NCBI GenBank assembly: GCA_945890715.1
Contig: CAMDCX010000003.1
Coordinates: forward strand, 34,705-98,704
Source of the DNA: PVC group bacterium
GTDB taxonomy: Bacteria > Verrucomicrobiota > Kiritimatiellia > CAIKKV01 > CAITUY01
Length of the DNA stretch: 64,000 bases
Direction: 5' to 3'
Shown: in pieces, positions 6,197 through 34,365 of the stretch
Numbering within the stretch: position 1 is the stretch's first letter
Layout of the letters: each line of letters opens with the position of its first letter
The notes under the pieces: generated by a model
Seen by the model: only the letters and a program-made list of their open reading frames with translations
Databases searched by the model: none
What the model was told of the DNA's origin: nothing
Program-made: the position numbers and the translations under genes

Positions 6197-6532
6197 TCAC
6201 TTCCCGTCTGACAACACAATCGTAATGTGGCTGGTCCGTTTCCGGATCCGACTCACCATACCACGCGAACGCGCCCAAAAACGCTTCATCGCCGGTCCTT
6301 CGCCGATCGTGGCCTCTTTCACTCGCAGATCATCCGCAGAAAGCTTTGCGTTATTTTCCGCATTAGCCACCGCCGAACGAATCGTCTTCTCCAACTGCCG
6401 CGCGGCCTTGCGCTCACTAAATTCAACCGTCTTGATTGCATCGGCCACCGGCAGACCTTGAATAGCCCTCGCCATATCCCGCGCCTTACGCGGAGACAGA
6501 CGCACATACTTGGTCACTGCTTTGACTTCCAT
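6197..6532 (-). CDS. rplV: 50S ribosomal protein L22 (uL22)
   Basis: Lines the peptide exit tunnel. KYVRLSPRKARDMARAIQG at the start and SRIRKRTSHITIVLSDGK at the end are family signatures; the latter includes the beta-hairpin that reaches into the tunnel. ATG at 6532, 111 residues. The SD (TAGGAG) overlaps the stop codon of the upstream orf164, so rplV translation is probably coupled to that unusual gene instead of to rpsS. Confidence 0.97.
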   Translation of the reverse strand: MEVKAVTKYVRLSPRKARDMARAIQGLPVADAIKTVEFSERKAARQLEKTIRSAVANAENNAKLSADDLRVKEATIGEGPAMKRFWARSRGMVSRIRKRTSHITIVLSDGK

Positions 6533-6542
6533 TGCCTTACTC

Positions 6543-7037
6543 CTAGTTCCCGAAACCGGTAACAACAACTGCCCGGTCCTGAACCCTGGGAAATGCCCGA
6601 TTCGTCTTCTGGATAACAGCTCCGGCAACCGCCGCCCGAACATCCACAACCCGCATCGTGGCCACAGCCCGATCCTCTTGCATCACCGCGAACTGCAGAC
6701 CCGGCTTTACACCGTCCTGTCGCCCGCCGTCAAGGATCACCATGCCCAGCTCTTTGTTTACGTCTAAAATTCTAAACTCTTTTTTCCTCATTTCGGCTGG
6801 GGCAACGGGCCTTCCGCCCCTCCCCCCCGCCGTTTCATAGTCCCGGCTATCCTCCCGGGCTCTCAAAACATCCACTTCCGCCTTCGTCATGGCCAGCGCC
6901 TCGGTCAAGTATTTAACCTGACGCCGGAGACATTCGTCTTGGCCTCCGTCAACTCCCGCCTTTAAACTGTACCCCACCAGCAGGCACACAATAGCGAGAG
7001 TCAATCCAAACCGCCGCGCCTTATTTCCCGCACGCAT
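6543..7037 (-). CDS. Unrecognised membrane-anchored protein inside the S10 operon (orf164)
   Basis: I do not recognise a named family. The 164-residue protein has a basic N-terminus (MRAGNKARRFG) followed by a hydrophobic helix (residues about 10-26, LTLAIVCLLVGYSLKAG), so it is probably anchored in or exported across the inner membrane. A charged, coiled-coil-like stretch follows (about 36-65), and then a beta-rich C-terminal domain (about 85-160: FRILDVNKELGMVILDGG, QDGVKPGLQFAVMQ). Short beta domains of this look, with G-x-D-G-V-K-x-G, occur in periplasmic proteins such as the FlgT C-terminus, but that resemblance is only by eye. It starts 4 nt after rpsS and ends 10 nt before rplV, on the same strand, so it is co-transcribed with ribosomal proteins. 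A membrane protein at this otherwise invariant junction is unusual. Confidence 0.85.
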   Translation of the reverse strand: MRAGNKARRFGLTLAIVCLLVGYSLKAGVDGGQDECLRRQVKYLTEALAMTKAEVDVLRAREDSRDYETAGGRGGRPVAPAEMRKKEFRILDVNKELGMVILDGGRQDGVKPGLQFAVMQEDRAVATMRVVDVRAAVAGAVIQKTNRAFPRVQDRAVVVTGFGN

Positions 7038-7041
7038 ACGA

Positions 7042-7326
7042 CTACTTCAACGCCACCGTCTTATCGGTATGCGTGCCGTGCTTTCGGAAAATGCGTGTTG
7101 GTGCAAATTCACCCAAACGATGACTCACCATATGCTCCGTGATGTACACGGGAACATGCTGCTTGCCATTGTGTACGGCTAGCGTATGCCCGACAAACTC
7201 AGGAACAATCATGGAACGACGGGACCACGTCTTGACCACGCGCTTTTCGCCAACGCGATTCATTTTCTCGACGCGCTCCAGAAGCTTCTCATCAACAAAC
7301 GGCCCCTTTTTTAATGAACGGCCCAT
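7042..7326 (-). CDS. rpsS: 30S ribosomal protein S19 (uS19)
   Basis: Head protein forming a complex with uS13 close to the A-site t[41 protein letters not shown] and [16 protein letters not shown] identify it. 94 residues, ATG start, 3 nt after rplB. The next gene downstream is orf164 and not rplV. Confidence 0.98.
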
Positions 7327-9738: not shown

Positions 9739-10050
9739 TTAAATCTTGATCGTTATATCCACACCGGCGGGCATATTGAGTTTCTTCAACTCATCCACCG
9801 TCCTTGCCGTCGGCTCCACAATGTCCAAAACCCGCTTATGGGTCCGGACCTCAAATTGCTCCATCGATTTCTTATCGGCATGCACACTGCGATTAACACT
9901 GTAACTCTCAATGCGCGTTGGCATCGGAATGGGCCCCACCACCCGGGCTCCTGTTCTCTTTGCCGTTTCCACAATATCGGACACAGACTGATCCAGCACC
10001 CGATAATCGTAGGCTTTCAAACGTATACGTATGCGTTGCTTTTCCATCAT
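9739..10050 (-). CDS. rpsJ: 30S ribosomal protein S10 (uS10, NusE)
   Basis: Small-subunit head protein that also acts as NusE in antitermination, bridging NusG (encoded upstream in the same cluster) and NusB. The sequence [19 protein letters not shown] and [17 protein letters not shown] is diagnostic. 102-103 residues (two adjacent ATGs, 10050 and 10047). It directly follows fusA; no second tuf gene intervenes. Confidence 0.97.
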
Positions 10051-10054
10051 TCAC

Positions 10055-12247
10055 TCACCGTTCCAGAAGTTGCTGTTGTATCGCCTCCGGCACTACATCA
10101 AAACACGCCGGCTCCATCGTGTAACTCGCCCGCCCCCGCGTCAGAGACCGGACGGCCGTCGAATATCCAAAAAGTTCCGCCAGCGGAACTCGCGCATGGA
10201 TCACCTGCACGGTTTCCTTACCAACCATGTCCTGAACATGTCCGCGTCGGGCGCTCACATCGTTCAACACATCCCCCAAATGATCTGCCGGAAGAATAAT
10301 CTCAAGCGACATGATGGGCTCCAGAATCGCCGGCCTTGACGCCTTCGCCGCCACTCTCAGGGCCATCACTCCTGCCGTCCGGAAGGACACCTCCGTGGAT
10401 TCCTGATCATGAAACTCGCCGCCCACCACCCTGACCCTAACGTCTACCATTGGATAGTTCGCCAGAATTCCAGTCGTAAGTCCATCCCGAACCCCCTCCT
10501 CCACAGCGCCGCGGAATTCAGCCGGGATTCGAGTGTTCGACACATCAAATTCGACTGAAACTCCTGAGCCGCGTTCAGAGGGCTCGACATTCAGAACGAC
10601 CACGGCAAATTGAGGTTGCCCGGCAATGTCACGCTCAAAGCGATATTCACCCCGACCTGAAGCCAGAACGGTCTCCCGGTACGCCACCATCGGCCTCCCC
10701 GCATTCGCCTGCACCTTGTACTCACGAAACATCCGGTCTTTCAAAATCTCAAGATGCAACTCGCCCATGCCACTCAAAAGAGTCTGGCCGGTATCAGGAT
10801 CCACCGACACGATACAGGTCGGATCCTCCGCTGCAAGTGCACTCATGGCCTCGCCCAACTTCTCGCGATCAGCCTGCGATTTTGGCTCGATCGCCATGGA
10901 AATAACCGGCTCCGGAAAACGGATACGCTCCAGCTCGACGGGCATATTCTCGACACACAGAGTATCGCCTGTCGTGATCTGCTTCAATCCAACCACCGCA
11001 CCGATTTCCCCGGCATGCAAAACGTCCACCTCCTGGCGATCATCCGCATGCAGGAGCACCAATTTCATCACACGTTCACGTTTCCGGGTACGGGCATTAA
11101 ACACATTTTGCCCCTTCCGGATCTGTCCGGAATAGACACGAACAAAGGCGAGTCGCCCCATATAGGCATCGCTCATCAACTTAAAAACCAACGCACTCTG
11201 AGGAGCGAAATCATCCGCTTCACGAGACACAACTTCACGGGTCTTGGGATGTTCGCCTCGAACCGGAGGAACATCTATCGGAGCCGGAAGAAAATCCACG
11301 ACGGCGTCCAACAACTGCTGAACCCCCTTATTACGAAGTGACGATCCACACAAAACCGGCGTCAGGGTCTGTGCGAGCGTCGCACGTCGCAACCCATCCC
11401 GTAGAACCTGCGCAGGAACATCGGCACAGTCCAGATAGGATTCAAGAACTTTTTCATCCCGTTCAGTTAAAATCTCGATGAGCTGAGCACGAGCCTTCTC
11501 AGCCTCCACGGCCAGCTCAGCAGGAATCGAAACCGCCTGAACCTTGCTCCCGAAGGAAGTGTCGTCATAAACAATGGCTTCCATGGCCAGCAGATCAATG
11601 ACCCCGCGGAATCGATCTTCAGAACCCCACGGGATCTGAATGGGCACCGGAACTGCTCCCAAACGGGTTCGTATCTGAGCAACCACCGAATTGAAGTCAG
11701 CGCCAATACGATCCATTTTATTCACAAATGCAATGCGGGGAACATGATAGCGATCCGCCTGATGCCAGACTGTTTCAGACTGCGGCTGCACGCCGCCCAC
11801 ACCACAAAACACCACAACCGCACCATCCAGAACACGCAACGACCGCTCGACTTCAACTGTAAAATCAACATGCCCGGGAGTGTCGATGAGATTGATCTGG
11901 TGATCCCGCCAGAAACAAGTCGTCGCGGCGCTCGTAATGGTGATGCCGCGTTCCTTTTCCTGCGGCATCCAGTCCATTGTGGCGGTTCCCTCATGGACTT
12001 CACCCATACGATGCACTCGACCGGCATAAAACAGAATACGCTCGCTCGTCGTGGTCTTACCCGCATCGATGTGGGCAATGATCCCGATATTGCGAACGGC
12101 GGACAGAGGACGTACACGATCCGCCGCTTCACGCTGGCGCGCGTCCCCTGTGGCTCCACCTTGTTTATTCTGTTCCAAAACTGTTTCCATTTGATTCACT
12201 AAACAAACAACACCCGCCGCCCGATCGTCGGACGACGGGATATTCAT
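10055..12247 (-). CDS. fusA: Elongation factor G
   Basis: Translocase GTPase that moves tRNAs and mRNA after peptide transfer. G motifs are visible: [19 protein letters not shown] (P loop), the switch-[22 protein letters not shown] and [10 protein letters not shown]. The C-terminal domains IV-V are complete. The 730-residue frame from ATG 12247 leaves a 9-nt gap to rpsG; an alternative ATG at 12190 gives 711 residues. Neither has a strong SD, so the start is uncertain. Either form has an N-terminal extension before the GTPase core compared with the usual 690-700 residues. Lies in the str portion of the cluster. Confidence 0.95.
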
Positions 12248-27768: not shown

Positions 27769-28947
27769 TCACAAACCCGGACGCCGCACATATACACTCT
27801 GAATCAAACCTAAAGTAAACAGGGTGATCACCATGAACGTTCCGCCGTAACTCACCAGAGGCAGGGGGATCCCCACCACCGGAAGCACGCCGATCGTCAT
27901 CGCTACATTCACGAACGCATGCGTAAAAAACATCGTCACGATGCCCACACATAACACCCGCCCCATCTTGTCGCGCGCCACCATGGCCGCGTATAACCCG
28001 CAAACCGTCAGAATCCCATACAGCGCCAGCACCAGTAACGCCCCCGCAAATCCCGTCTCCTCCGCAATAACGGAAAAGATAAAATCGGTAGGGGCCACTG
28101 TTCGCGGAAGGAAGCCCAGAATATTCTGGGTTCCATTCAGGAATCCTTTTCCCGTGAGTCCACCCGAACCCACGGCTATCTCAGACTGACGCTTGTTCCA
28201 CCCCGTCCCCATCGGATCCTTCCCGGGGTGCAAAAACACCGCAATCCGGTCGCGCTGGTAATCGCTTAACCGGATCGTTTGAAAAAACTTCTCCTGGTGC
28301 TCGGGCGTCATGCCCAGCCGTTCAGGCAGGGCCACCGCCGCCAGCACCAACAGCACAACCAACGCCCCGCCAGCCATCAGCGTCACCAACGGCCGCACCG
28401 GGGTTCCCGCCGCAAACAGCATGGCCGTCACAATCGGAAGAAACACCAGCGCACTCCCCAGATCGGGCTCCTTCATCACCAAAAGCATCGGCACCCCGGC
28501 TAGGGCGAACAGCTTCCACAAGGACGGCAACCGGGCATACTTTTCCACCAGCGGGCTCAACAGGCAGGCTCCAAGGATAATCACCGCCAGCTTCCCGATC
28601 TCAGACGGCTGCACCCCGACACCCAGAAACATCAGCCAGCGCTTCGCCCCATAGATCCGGGTTCCAAAAAACAACACCGCCACCAGCAGGATCACCCCCA
28701 TGGCATAAAGCCCCCAGGAGACATCCCGGAGTCGGCGATAATCCGTCATCGCCGTCATCAGATAACATCCCAACCCCGCCGCCGCCCACACCATCTGCTT
28801 CCGGAAAAGATCCGCCGTGGAATCCTCCCGCATCGATGTGGCGCTATAAATAAAAAATACGCCGATCACAATCAGTCCCAGGATCGCCGCCAGCATCAGC
28901 CAGTTCATTCGCTTAAGCAGGCGCAGACTGGAGAGAAATTCACTCAT
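27769..28947 (-). CDS. rodA: Peptidoglycan glycosyltransferase RodA (SEDS family)
   Basis: Polymerises lipid II during lateral wall growth, working with PBP2. About ten transmembrane helices; conserved SEDS segments include GTRIYGAKRWLMFLGVGVQP, KEPDLGSALVFLPI and the C-terminal PLVSYGGTFMVI. 392 residues, ATG start overlapping the mrdA stop by 4 nt (ATGA), so synthesis of the pair is coupled. Confidence 0.96.
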   Translation of the reverse strand: MSEFLSSLRLLKRMNWLMLAAILGLIVIGVFFIYSATSMREDSTADLFRKQMVWAAAGLGCYLMTAMTDYRRLRDVSWGLYAMGVILLVAVLFFGTRIYGAKRWLMFLGVGVQPSEIGKLAVIILGACLLSPLVEKYARLPSLWKLFALAGVPMLLVMKEPDLGSALVFLPIVTAMLFAAGTPVRPLVTLMAGGALVVLLVLAAVALPERLGMTPEHQEKFFQTIRLSDYQRDRIAVFLHPGKDPMGTGWNKRQSEIAVGSGGLTGKGFLNGTQNILGFLPRTVAPTDFIFSVIAEETGFAGALLVLALYGILTVCGLYAAMVARDKMGRVLCVGIVTMFFTHAFVNVAMTIGVLPVVGIPLPLVSYGGTFMVITLFTLGLIQSVYVRRPGL

Positions 28948-30776
28948 CCCCCCGCCCCCGTTTCCGTCGCCGGAGTACCGCCGAAAATCCCCAGCATCAG
29001 CTCATGCACCCGAGGCCCCACGGTCAGCCCGCCCGATACCGCATCATCCACCACCATGGCTACCGCATAACGGGGCTTGTCATACGGCGCGAACACGATC
29101 ATCCAGCCGTGTTTCTTGCGATCTTCCTTTTGTCCGTATTCCGCCGTCCCGGTCTTGCCGGCCATTTCAACACCGGGAATCCCGGCCCGTCTTCCGGTAC
29201 CCGTAGGCGCCATTACCACATCATGCATCCCCTGGCGCACCGCCTCCATCACCGCCGGGGCCACGGGAAGCTGCCTCACTTTGACGGATGGAAAATTCGT
29301 CAGGATCGTTCCCTGCCAGTCCCGCAGGGCTGTCACCAGACGCGGCCGGTATACCGCTCCCCCATTCGCCAACGCGGCGGCCATCAATGCCATTTGCAGC
29401 GGCGTCACCGCCAACGCCCCCTGCCCGATCGAAAAATTACAGGTATCCCCGACACGCCAGTCATCACGCCAGGCATTCTTCTTCCACTCCGGAGTCGGCA
29501 CCAACCCCGGCGCCTCCCGATCCAGCTCAATTTCCGTTTTTGCCCCCATCCCGAATAGCAGAGCAAGGTCGGAGATGGCATCGTTACCACACTTGACGCC
29601 AATCGTTGCAAAATACACATTGCAGGACTGCTCGATGGCGCGTCGCAGATCGACCCGTCCGTGCCCGTTCGGATTCCAGCACTTCATCGCTTTTTTCCCG
29701 ATCATGTAATAGCCCGGACAATCCACCGTCATCCCGACTGATACGGCTCCGTTGTTAAGAGCCGCCAGCGCCGTTACTGGCTTGAAAATGCTTCCCGGCG
29801 CGTACACCTCCGCCACGGCCTTGTTCAGCATGGGACGATTCGGATCCGCGTTTAACTGTTCCCAGAGAACCTTGGGGACAATCGGCACGAACTGACTGGG
29901 ATTGAAAGTCGGCGAACTGGCCAGCGCGAGGACATCACCGTTTCGGGGATCAAGGACCACCACGGCGCCGGGCACATCCCGGATCGCGGATTCGGCCAGC
30001 GCCTGGATTCGGCTGTCGAGCGCCAGAATCACCGAGTCCCCGGCTCGCGGCTCCTGCTCAACCTGCTCCGCATGCTTGAATCCCGACGCATCAATACGAA
30101 CCAGCCGTCCGCCCGCCTCTCCGGCCATTACCTTATCGAACTTGCGCTCCAATCCCATCTTTCCTTCCATCTCAGGCAAGGTGTACTGGTAGCCGGCAAT
30201 ATCCGCATCGGATAACTCCGCCTTGCCTACATACCCGAGCAGGTGCGCCGCAAGCTCGTTTCGCGGATAGATCCGCGCCGGCTCGACATAAATGTCAACC
30301 CCGGTCATGTCGCAGGAAGCCTCGGTCAGGCGCGCCAATGCAGCGGGATCCAGGCTCCGCCAGGCCACAAGCGGCAGGGGAAGCCGCCGCCGGATGTGAA
30401 GCCAGATATCATCTTCGGTAATCACCGGCTTGCGACCAATGAGCACGGCAAGCTCCGTAATCCGCCGTTGAATTTCCGCCACAGTATATTTCCATTTCCC
30501 GGGCTTCCTTATCTCCTCGAGGTATAAGGCCAGGCAGTAACAGGGCTGATTGTCGGCCAGAGCGACCCCGTTACGATCCAAAATAAGACCCCGGGGGGCA
30601 GGCAGGCGGATCCGGCGCATGCTTTGCCGATGCAGGCTTTCCTCAAACTCGCCCTCGCGGGATACCTGAAGACTGAACAGCATTCCCCCAAGCAGAGCCA
30701 GAAGAACAAGCATAATGATCAGAATCAGTCGGATCCTGCCCAGCTCAGAATTGATCGTGTTGTTCGCTGCCGGCAT
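28944..30776 (-). CDS. mrdA: Penicillin-binding protein 2 (elongasome transpeptidase)
   Basis: Class B PBP that cross-links peptidoglycan for rod shape. One N-terminal membrane helix (IRLILIIMLVLLALLGGMLF), a pedestal domain, then the transpeptidase domain with YAPGSIFKPVTALAA (SxxK serine), IEQSCNVYF (SxN) and AGKTGTAEYG (KTG). 610 residues, ATG start, one nucleotide after mreD. Operon mreB-mreC-mreD-mrdA-rodA is the canonical elongasome set. Confidence 0.97.
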   Translation of the reverse strand: MPAANNTINSELGRIRLILIIMLVLLALLGGMLFSLQVSREGEFEESLHRQSMRRIRLPAPRGLILDRNGVALADNQPCYCLALYLEEIRKPGKWKYTVAEIQRRITELAVLIGRKPVITEDDIWLHIRRRLPLPLVAWRSLDPAALARLTEASCDMTGVDIYVEPARIYPRNELAAHLLGYVGKAELSDADIAGYQYTLPEMEGKMGLERKFDKVMAGEAGGRLVRIDASGFKHAEQVEQEPRAGDSVILALDSRIQALAESAIRDVPGAVVVLDPRNGDVLALASSPTFNPSQFVPIVPKVLWEQLNADPNRPMLNKAVAEVYAPGSIFKPVTALAALNNGAVSVGMTVDCPGYYMIGKKAMKCWNPNGHGRVDLRRAIEQSCNVYFATIGVKCGNDAISDLALLFGMGAKTEIELDREAPGLVPTPEWKKNAWRDDWRVGDTCNFSIGQGALAVTPLQMALMAAALANGGAVYRPRLVTALRDWQGTILTNFPSVKVRQLPVAPAVMEAVRQGMHDVVMAPTGTGRRAGIPGVEMAGKTGTAEYGQKEDRKKHGWMIVFAPYDKPRYAVAMVVDDAVSGGLTVGPRVHELMLGIFGGTPATETGAGG

Positions 30777-30777
30777 G

Positions 30778-31284
30778 CTATCTTTCTTCCGCCCTTGTTA
30801 ATCCCACATGACGCTCAAGCGTGTCCGCCATCCACCATACCAGCGGCGCCACCATCAGACCCAGAAGCGCATTACCGCCTGCTTTCAGCGCCACCCACCA
30901 CAGAGGCATGTCGGCCGCAAGAGAATTCAGGGAGAGCATTCCATACAGGCCGAACGTGGTGAAAGCGGCCATCGACGCCCCCAGCACCGCCACCGTGAGA
31001 AAACTGTCCCGGAACATCGTCTCACGGGTCTGCACCACAAATAACGCAAAAACAACAAGACAAAGTGATGACGTTCCCACTGGAAACAGGCTCATGGTAT
31101 CCTGGATCACGCCCGCCAGAATGGCCGCCGTCACAGCCATTCCCCTCGGATAAATCAGAGCGTAATACAACGCCACAGCCTGCAGAATCGGCGGCTTGGA
31201 AAGCCCCAACCACGCCGCCGCCGGAATCAGACCCTGAATGAGCGCGCCCACCAGTAATAAAAAGATCATGATTGCCGCAGTCAT
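30778..31284 (-). CDS. mreD: Rod shape-determining protein MreD
   Basis: Small integral membrane partner of MreC. Five or so hydrophobic helices across 168 residues (IMIFLLLVGALIQGLIPAAA, AVTAAILAGVIQDTMSL). Sequence conservation in this family is low; identity rests on length, topology and position. Its ATG overlaps the mreC stop (ATGA). Confidence 0.92.
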   Translation of the reverse strand: MTAAIMIFLLLVGALIQGLIPAAAWLGLSKPPILQAVALYYALIYPRGMAVTAAILAGVIQDTMSLFPVGTSSLCLVVFALFVVQTRETMFRDSFLTVAVLGASMAAFTTFGLYGMLSLNSLAADMPLWWVALKAGGNALLGLMVAPLVWWMADTLERHVGLTRAEER

Positions 31285-32132
31285 TGGTTCTCACCCTGTT
31301 TCCCGGTCACCACCAGAACACTCCTGAGTCGACCCAGATCGGCCACCGGTTCAACATCCCCATGCTGATACAGCCCGGTCTCGTCAAGGGTCACCCGAAC
31401 CACTCGTCCCACGGCCAAGCCGGGCGGGAAAATTCCGCCCAACCCCGAGGTCATCACCCGTTCCCCGGCCTGAATTGCCAGATCCTTGCGCAAATAGTCC
31501 ACCCGGAAGGGACCGGGGACACACAACACCCCCGTGCTGTGGACACCCCTCAGCGAAACTCCACCGCCATGCAGAATCCCGAATGAACCCTCCTGGTCGA
31601 ATCGGACGGATACCTTGAAGGATCGGTCTGAAATCAGCAGGACATCGCACGTCTGATCCGACACCTCGGTCGTTCGGCCCACCACCCCGTCGGGTGTAAT
31701 CACCGGCATGTTGGCGGCAAGGCCGTGTTTTCGCCCCTTGTCCAATCGGAGAGTCTGCCACCAGCCATACCCGTCATCACGGGCAATCACCTCACAGGCA
31801 ACGGTTTTCAGGGATACTCGCCGCTGGTAGTCAAGCTGCGCGCGTAACTCCTGGTTTTCACGAGCCAGGGGCTCCAGATTCCGAAGTCTGGTGCGGAGCC
31901 CCATGGCCTCGCGGTCAAGCCGGTCACGCTCCTGGATCACCTCCGTGATATTCCCCACTGCCGAGGACGTCTTTTGAACACCGGACATCAAGCGGGTGAC
32001 GCCACCCTGATAGGTGGCCATGCTTTCGCGAAAGAATTCCCGCAGGGAGGACGACACGGTGGGGGGCAGGTTCAGGAGAACCAGGAAAAAGGTCGCCAAT
32101 ATCACCCAGAAAAGAAAATTTTTATCCCTCAC
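31281..32132 (-). CDS. mreC: Rod shape-determining protein MreC
   Basis: Periplasmic scaffold linking MreB, MreD and PBP2. Membrane helix at residues 7-25 (LFWVILATFFLVLLNLPPT), coiled coil about 60-105 (RDRLDREAMGLRTRLRNLEP), then the beta-barrel domain with TPDGVVGRTTEVSDQTCDVL and VMTSGLGGIFPPGLAVGRV. 283 residues from a GTG start. Follows mreB after 70 nt. Confidence 0.95.
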   Translation of the reverse strand: MRDKNFLFWVILATFFLVLLNLPPTVSSSLREFFRESMATYQGGVTRLMSGVQKTSSAVGNITEVIQERDRLDREAMGLRTRLRNLEPLARENQELRAQLDYQRRVSLKTVACEVIARDDGYGWWQTLRLDKGRKHGLAANMPVITPDGVVGRTTEVSDQTCDVLLISDRSFKVSVRFDQEGSFGILHGGGVSLRGVHSTGVLCVPGPFRVDYLRKDLAIQAGERVMTSGLGGIFPPGLAVGRVVRVTLDETGLYQHGDVEPVADLGRLRSVLVVTGKQGENQ

Positions 32133-32202: not shown

Positions 32203-33328
<1,126 letters not shown>

Positions 33329-33350: not shown

Positions 33351-33379
33351 TGGACAGAACAGGGGAATGGGTTGATAAT
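33351..33379 (+). promoter_or_regulatory. Probable promoter of msrBA-NYN
   Basis: Plus-strand TGGACA (33351-33356) and GATAAT (33374-33379) are separated by exactly 17 nt, each one base from consensus. The expected transcription start, near 33386, leaves a short leader before the SD at 33394. Confidence 0.6.
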
Positions 33380-33405
33380 TGCGTCCTATTTCCAAGGAGG
33401 GTGTT

Positions 33406-34365
33406 GTGCATCGAGCGAGTCTGACCGTCCTGCTGGGCTTCATAGCCCTGGCCCAAACAGGTTTCACCCTGCCCCAAAAGGAGGCAACAATGAATGAATG
33501 GCGCAAACTCACCCCGAAGGAAGAACAGGTTATTGTTCAAAAAGGAACTGAAGCCCCTTTCAGCGGACGATTCGACAAATTCAAGGCCGAGGGCCTCTAC
33601 ACCTGCAGGCGATGCGGAGCCGCCCTCTACCGGTCGGAAGACAAATTTGACTCAGGTTGCGGCTGGCCCAGCTTCGATGCCGAGATCCCGGGCGCAGTGA
33701 AGCGACTAAAAGATCCCGATGGACGACGTATTGAAATCGAGTGCGCCCATTGCAACGCCCATCTGGGACATGTCTTCACAGGCGAAAAGATGACCGCACG
33801 GAACACTCGACACTGCGTGAACTCGATTTCCATGGACTTCATCCCCCAGGCGGACATCGCCAGGCATTTTGAGCGGGCAATTTTTGCCGGAGGGTGTTTC
33901 TGGGGCGTGGAATATTATCTACAGAAGGCACCCGGCGTGTTAAGCACCACGATAGGCTACACGGGCGGCAAAACCATCAAACCCACCTATCAGCAAGTCT
34001 GCGCTCACGGAAGCGGCCATGCGGAAGCCGTCGAAGTGGTGTATGACCCGCGCCAAACCACATTTGAAAAAATGGCCCGTCTCTTTTTTGAGATTCATGA
34101 CCCCACGGAACTTAACCGCCAGGGCCCGGACGTCGGTGACCAGTACCGTTCGGAAATCTTCTATCTGACATCGGAACAAAAGGAAATTTCAGAAAAGCTC
34201 ATTAAAGCACTCAAGAACAAGGGCTGGGCAGTCGTCACCCGCCTCACCCACGCCGTTGCCTTTTGGCCTGGTGAGGAGTACCACCGTGATTATTACCTGC
34301 GAAACGGGAAGACCCCCTACTGCCACCGCCCTGTTCCAAGATTTGAAAAAGGAGAAACCTTATGA
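33406..34365 (+). CDS. msrBA: MsrB-MsrA fusion, peptide methionine sulfoxide reductase, with two candidate starts
   Basis: Repairs both stereoisomers of oxidised methionine. The MsrB domain comes first, with zinc pairs CRRCGAALY and CAHCNAHLG and the catalytic cysteine in RNTRHCVNSISMDF. The MsrA domain follows (IFAGGCFWGVEYYLQKAPGV with its catalytic cysteine). Two in-frame starts each have a near-perfect SD with a 5-nt spacer. GTG 33406 (SD 33394-33400) gives 319 residues with a hydrophobic export-like N-terminus (SLTVLLGFIALAQTGFTL). ATG 33490 (SD 33476-33484) gives 291 residues without it. The long form would be exported, the short form cytoplasmic. Overlaps the next gene by 4 nt. Confidence 0.93.
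   Translation: MHRASLTVLLGFIALAQTGFTLPQKEATMNEWRKLTPKEEQVIVQKGTEAPFSGRFDKFKAEGLYTCRRCGAALYRSEDKFDSGCGWPSFDAEIPGAVKRLKDPDGRRIEIECAHCNAHLGHVFTGEKMTARNTRHCVNSISMDFIPQADIARHFERAIFAGGCFWGVEYYLQKAPGVLSTTIGYTGGKTIKPTYQQVCAHGSGHAEAVEVVYDPRQTTFEKMARLFFEIHDPTELNRQGPDVGDQYRSEIFYLTSEQKEISEKLIKALKNKGWAVVTRLTHAVAFWPGEEYHRDYYLRNGKTPYCHRPVPRFEKGETL

Follow-up and report, generated by a model that had tools for sequence, protein, structure and literature searches.

The secY gene, which belongs to the export machinery, is encoded inside a ribosomal protein operon, the spc operon. A different arrangement is found for SecM, an exported protein encoded directly before the gene that it regulates, secA, and whose stalling depends on ribosomal protein L22, which lines the exit tunnel (PMC3022528). 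Among envelope proteins, FlgT is a likely component of the H ring in the Vibrio flagellar basal body (PMC3872333), MreC combines an N-terminal hydrophobic helix, a coiled coil and a beta-barrel in that order, and TsaP is a pilus secretin-associated protein with an N-terminal LysM domain. Here we describe a gene, placed directly before rplV (the gene for L22), whose product appears to be exported. As with secY, an export-related gene is found in a ribosomal protein operon, although secY is near-universal and encodes an unrelated protein, whereas the gene described here was found in one phylum, the Verrucomicrobiota, which is the one surveyed. Its product, like the CT421.2-type PVC signature protein that serves as a PVC marker, is a small conserved hypothetical protein, but the CT421.2-type protein is set apart by its description as a protein of about 53 to over 80 amino acids shared with Chlamydiae and Planctomycetes (PMC3444138). 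No earlier description of the rplV-linked gene was found in the open-licence literature.

The junction of the gene with rpsS and rplV

Within the window, by which we mean the whole stretch of 64,000 nucleotides that was analysed, an open reading frame (ORF) of 164 amino acids with an ATG start and a TAG stop (6543..7037, minus strand) lies between rpsS, encoding ribosomal protein S19 (7042..7326, minus strand), and rplV (6197..6532, minus strand). The real start of rplV is at 6532, and the listed 150-amino-acid rplV ORF reaching 6649 is an upstream extension of this gene. A sequence-only reading of the window had placed the ORF at this junction, with gaps of 4 nt to rpsS and 10 nt to rplV and with its stop overlapped by the rplV Shine-Dalgarno sequence, and the coordinates agree on both points: the letters preceding rplV are AACTAGGAGTAAGGCAATG, so that the Shine-Dalgarno AGGAG (6540..6544, minus strand) shares two bases with the TAG stop of the ORF (6543-6545). 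The sequence holds no clear Shine-Dalgarno for the ORF's own start, near which only the rpsS stop is found, suggesting that translation of the ORF probably depends on translation of rpsS. Elsewhere in the window, rpsJ follows the end of fusA after 4 nt, and no tuf lies between the two (10050-10055).

The TAGGAG junction with rplV is kept in all nine searched genomes of the window's family, and in the same nine the frame is open, with 40-84% identity to the window protein and none of the frameshifts that would have spoken against the gene. Coupling to rplV, as had been proposed, therefore holds in its geometry within the family, but tight spacing is not universal, since the distance from the ORF to rplV (median 10-12 nt) is at most 16 nt at 46 of 67 loci and reaches 165 nt in a clade with a split operon. 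These data confirm that the ORF is real and has a conserved place at the rpsS-rplV junction. The expectation that it would be expressed at ribosomal protein levels had been inference only and found no backing: in a comparison confined to genes of the window, codon adaptation was an ordinary 0.66 for the ORF, 0.71-0.78 for the nearby ribosomal genes and 0.68 (median) for the other window genes, which does not suggest very high expression.

Predicted architecture and nearest folds

The protein has three parts. A hydrophobic N-terminal segment seen in the sequence (residues 10-27; 6957..7010, minus strand), which may be a signal peptide or an anchor, is followed by a predicted, fast-evolving helix or coiled coil (residues 33-70; 6828..6941, minus strand) and by a predicted six-stranded beta domain of about 75 amino acids (residues 86-160; 6558..6782, minus strand), in which N94, L97, G105, G109, G113, R134, D154 and R155 are conserved. 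The AlphaFold model of the window protein places helices at residues 4-27 and 33-70 and six beta strands at 87-160, and the model of a homologue from a Methylacidiphilum-labelled genome (L071) has the same architecture; in these models confidence is confined to the barrel (pLDDT about 80-90, and about 82-90 for the window's beta domain), and the N-terminal helix is weakly modelled. The coiled-coil-like stretch and beta-rich C-terminal domain of the sequence-only reading are thus matched by structure prediction. Among homologues the length of the coil is highly variable, and short forms have none.

A hydrophobic N-terminus was found in 63 of 67 homologues by a hydrophobicity heuristic that is unable to tell cleaved signals from anchors. 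By the same heuristic, many homologues carry an A-x-A-like site after the hydrophobic segment, some look uncleaved and one is lipoprotein-like. Start codons are uncertain for some homologues, and for two of the four that lack a hydrophobic N-terminus, one is encoded further upstream or in a different frame. In one locus (L017 of genome G027), the hydrophobic N-terminal part is out of frame with the remainder of the homologue close to a stretch of eight A (1260-1500), which may reflect an error in sequencing, a mutation or frameshifting. From these sequences, the N-terminal signal probably directs export of the protein out of the cytoplasm; the earlier term "membrane-anchored" captures the hydrophobic N-terminus, but an anchor is one option and a signal peptide fits at least as often.

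A further suggestion had been that translation is tethered to the membrane; in such a scheme, the nascent ORF product would bring the S10 polysome or new ribosomes there. The hydrophobic N-terminus and the operon position are what this idea draws on, and we found nothing else in its favour; in many homologues the signal could plausibly be cleaved, the gene is missing from many relatives, and the few residues before the hydrophobic segment leave no cytoplasmic part able to hold a ribosome. We consider such a tether very improbable.

Pfam and NCBIfam scans of diverse members yielded nothing above the cut-offs, so membership in a named family was ruled out. By fold, the beta domain came closest to the C-terminal domain of FlgT (PF16538; PDB 3w1e and 8z5n), to which it also shows sub-threshold sequence similarity near the glycine motif (13.5 bits for the window protein and 15.9 for the domain alone, below the cut-off of 27; best single-member E-value 0.0016, which also falls short of the Pfam cut-off). 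FlgT ranked first by Foldseek in both models, with E-values of 4e-4 and 8e-4 for the window model, in which MreC followed at 1.3e-3, and 2.7e-5 for the L071 model, although the TM-scores reach only 0.25-0.39 when normalised to the whole query, and further small barrels match too. MreC and F1-ATPase barrels ranked next, and since the latter match, the fold alone is no proof of an envelope role. FlgT acts outside the cytoplasm, as is predicted for the ORF product, but its other domains are missing from the ORF protein. A further difference from FlgT is that a homologue of the ORF also occurs in the gut bacterium Akkermansia muciniphila, which is not known to have flagella.

MreC (PF04085; PDB 9dvb and 2j5u) shares the order of parts with the ORF protein but has a larger core, whereas the ORF protein has one small barrel. 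An MreC profile match (E-value 9.5e-4) covers the coil and the first barrel motif, and the Pfam MreC model, with no match reaching its cut-off of 28 bits, matches only one of 25 members (E-value 0.046) and one of 19 domains (E-value 0.0077). The ORF was ruled out as mreC itself because a genuine mreC (window 31281-32132) adjoins mreB (32203-33240) at a separate locus, and the ORF does not lie beside mreB. This mreC is flanked by mreB and by genes resembling mreD and those for PBP2 and RodA (27769-31284, by eye), and it lies about 25 kb from the S10 operon, a distance that is similar in two other genomes (G003 and G004). An ORF at 33379-34365 of the window resembles, by eye, methionine sulfoxide reductases B and A fused in that order, and its N-terminus has a hydrophobic stretch. 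TsaP (PDB 3jc8) gave a profile match (E-value 0.003) in the same barrel motif, but the scanned members have no LysM in the Pfam results, and no pilus genes were seen near the ORF. The nearest folds and profiles, found in the envelope proteins FlgT, MreC and TsaP, are consistent with a role in the envelope.

The position before rplV also invites comparison with SecM: because L22 lines the exit tunnel (PMC3022528), a SecM-like role in cis is attractive. Translation and export of the ORF would gate the rplV block as SecM gates secA, and the export status of the protein would match ribosomal protein synthesis to export capacity. This idea can point to an apparently exported protein encoded directly upstream of the gene for the tunnel protein, to the overlap with the rplV Shine-Dalgarno within its own family, and to the precedent of SecM, whose stalling is L22-dependent (PMC3022528). 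However, unlike SecM, the ORF protein has no arrest motif and carries a folded domain that is conserved and under selection, and in some lineages its spacing to rplV extends to 165 nt. No conserved C-terminal arrest motif was found in the homologues, in which conservation is among the lowest at the final four residues, and an arrest-peptide leader was rejected for lack of such a motif. On balance, a secretion monitor of this kind seems unlikely.

Distribution, descent and selection

A search of related genomes gave matches to the ORF in 29 of 58, including every genome of the same order, and most of these lie between rpsS and rplV; genomes of the class that lack a match have a shorter rpsS-rplV gap with no ORF, except for three in which rplV is elsewhere. 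The first survey of the class suggested a lineage-specific insertion, which was dropped after a homologue in two Methylacidiphilum-labelled metagenome-assembled genomes led to a survey of the phylum. This survey, anchored on rpsS or rplV and not on the ORF, located a homologue immediately before rplV in 65 of the 117 genomes sampled, which belong to 36 of 59 families (14 of 34 in the window's class and 22 of 25 in other classes), shares that are not phylum frequencies, the genomes having been picked partly by relatedness to the window and partly for family spread. Conservation at the same spot is therefore clear, and the gene is neither confined to one genome nor matched by any mobile gene that we found. 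Since it was not found in 20 of the 34 families of its own class and 3 of the 25 others, it appears dispensable in many backgrounds. In genomes without the gene, no degenerate remnants were detected in longer rpsS-rplV gaps; five such loci (L035, L040-L042 and L046) have gaps of 181-260 nt with no ORF and no detectable remnant.

At 67 loci a homologue immediately precedes rplV and shares its strand, and these homologues vary in length. Many families of other classes have a longer protein of 235-321 amino acids between rpsS and rplV, and five further families have a short form of 112-130 amino acids with the signal and the barrel and no coil. Carriers include A. muciniphila (identified by an M60 peptidase free of mismatches to the whole chain of PDB 7sci, a protein of that species), with a homologue of 236 amino acids (L170). 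In one large clade the S10 operon ends at rpsS, and a homologue of 240-402 amino acids stands directly before rplV-rpsC-rplP; at these loci (L134-L156 and L179), varying other genes follow rpsS. The operon is also broken in G027, where rplB and rpsS are 0.57 Mb away and the homologue still precedes rplV. The two breaks are independent, and after each the gene has kept its place before rplV.

Profiles were built separately for four groups, namely the window's class, the long forms from other classes, the clade with the split operon and the short forms. By hhalign these profiles matched one another in all six comparisons, with E-values of 9.6e-24 to 8.1e-9. On an L22+S3 tree of 116 loci, presence and absence of the gene required 14 changes, at least eight of them forced by well-supported branches, versus 38 in shuffles. 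The gene is present on both sides of the root, which was placed by midpoint only, and the most parsimonious account is one early origin in the phylum followed by losses in several lineages, rather than a gene "inserted" as had first been said. Domain distances followed L22+S3 distances (Mantel r 0.73, 0 of 2000 permutations), which fits vertical descent. Among three close genomes, dN/dS was 0.16-0.22 for the beta domain, 0.27-0.84 for signal plus coil (coil, 0.27-0.74) and 0.00-0.05 for neighbouring genes, indicating that the beta domain is under purifying selection and that the protein is real but fast-evolving, unlike its ribosomal neighbours. A chance ORF or annotation artefact is already refuted by this domain dN/dS well below 1, by the open frame in every close relative and by the homologues across the phylum.

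Most of the genomes searched also encode barrel-domain paralogues with an N-terminal transmembrane helix and a long coiled coil that are not linked to ribosomal genes, and these occur in some genomes without an rplV-linked copy as well; examples are L199 (G000:C58:8440-8646), L201 and L195 (G150:C1:1478526-1478744 and 1479377-1479592), L026-L028 and L030. A tandem pair of such unlinked paralogues is seen in A. muciniphila.

The link to rplV and what it may mean

Our best reading is that the gene encodes an envelope protein whose synthesis keeps pace with that of the L22-S3-L16 block. The N-terminal signal would export the protein and then be either removed or retained as an anchor; once outside the cytoplasm, the protein may multimerise through its coiled coil, and the FlgT_C/MreC-like beta-barrel would bind an envelope partner, such as a wall- or outer-membrane-linked complex. 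Placed directly before rplV, the gene would be expressed whenever the L22-S3-L16 block is made, so that this envelope component would scale with ribosome production, as secY does for the translocon. Taken as a whole, with export, a bound partner and synthesis tied to ribosome production by the position at rplV, this proposal is put forward tentatively, its probability falling a little short of even.

The main rival is that a useful envelope protein settled early in the operon and stayed there by inertia and promoter sharing, the coupling itself not being selected. It has this standing because codon usage is ordinary (below that of the ribosomal genes) and the evidence from operon breaks is weak: there are only about two independent breaks, and staying twice with rplV could be chance. 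A median spacing this short makes separation rare, the rplV-linked gene has been lost many times, and the unlinked paralogues carry the same domain away from ribosomal genes. Against such hitchhiking, no relocated copy of the rplV-linked type was found in five gene-lacking genomes searched whole, the gene being kept at rplV or lost, and the overlap of the rplV Shine-Dalgarno with the stop is retained in the whole family. We regard hitchhiking as less likely than not, though not far behind the main reading.

The rpsS-rplV junction is among the steadiest bacterial gene neighbourhoods, and the gene for an apparently exported protein has occupied it from an early stage of the phylum onwards, Akkermansia included. 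The rplV-linked gene may serve as a phylogenetic marker and accounts for differences at this junction among relatives, and an unnamed family of more than 60 members gains a testable role. In an improbable but far-reaching case, export of a small envelope protein would act as a phylum-wide feedback that senses secretion or envelope capacity and sets L22-S3-L16 synthesis; if true, such a device would match ribosome production to envelope growth. Through this gene one can ask directly whether ribosome production and envelope growth are linked in these bacteria, and by what means.
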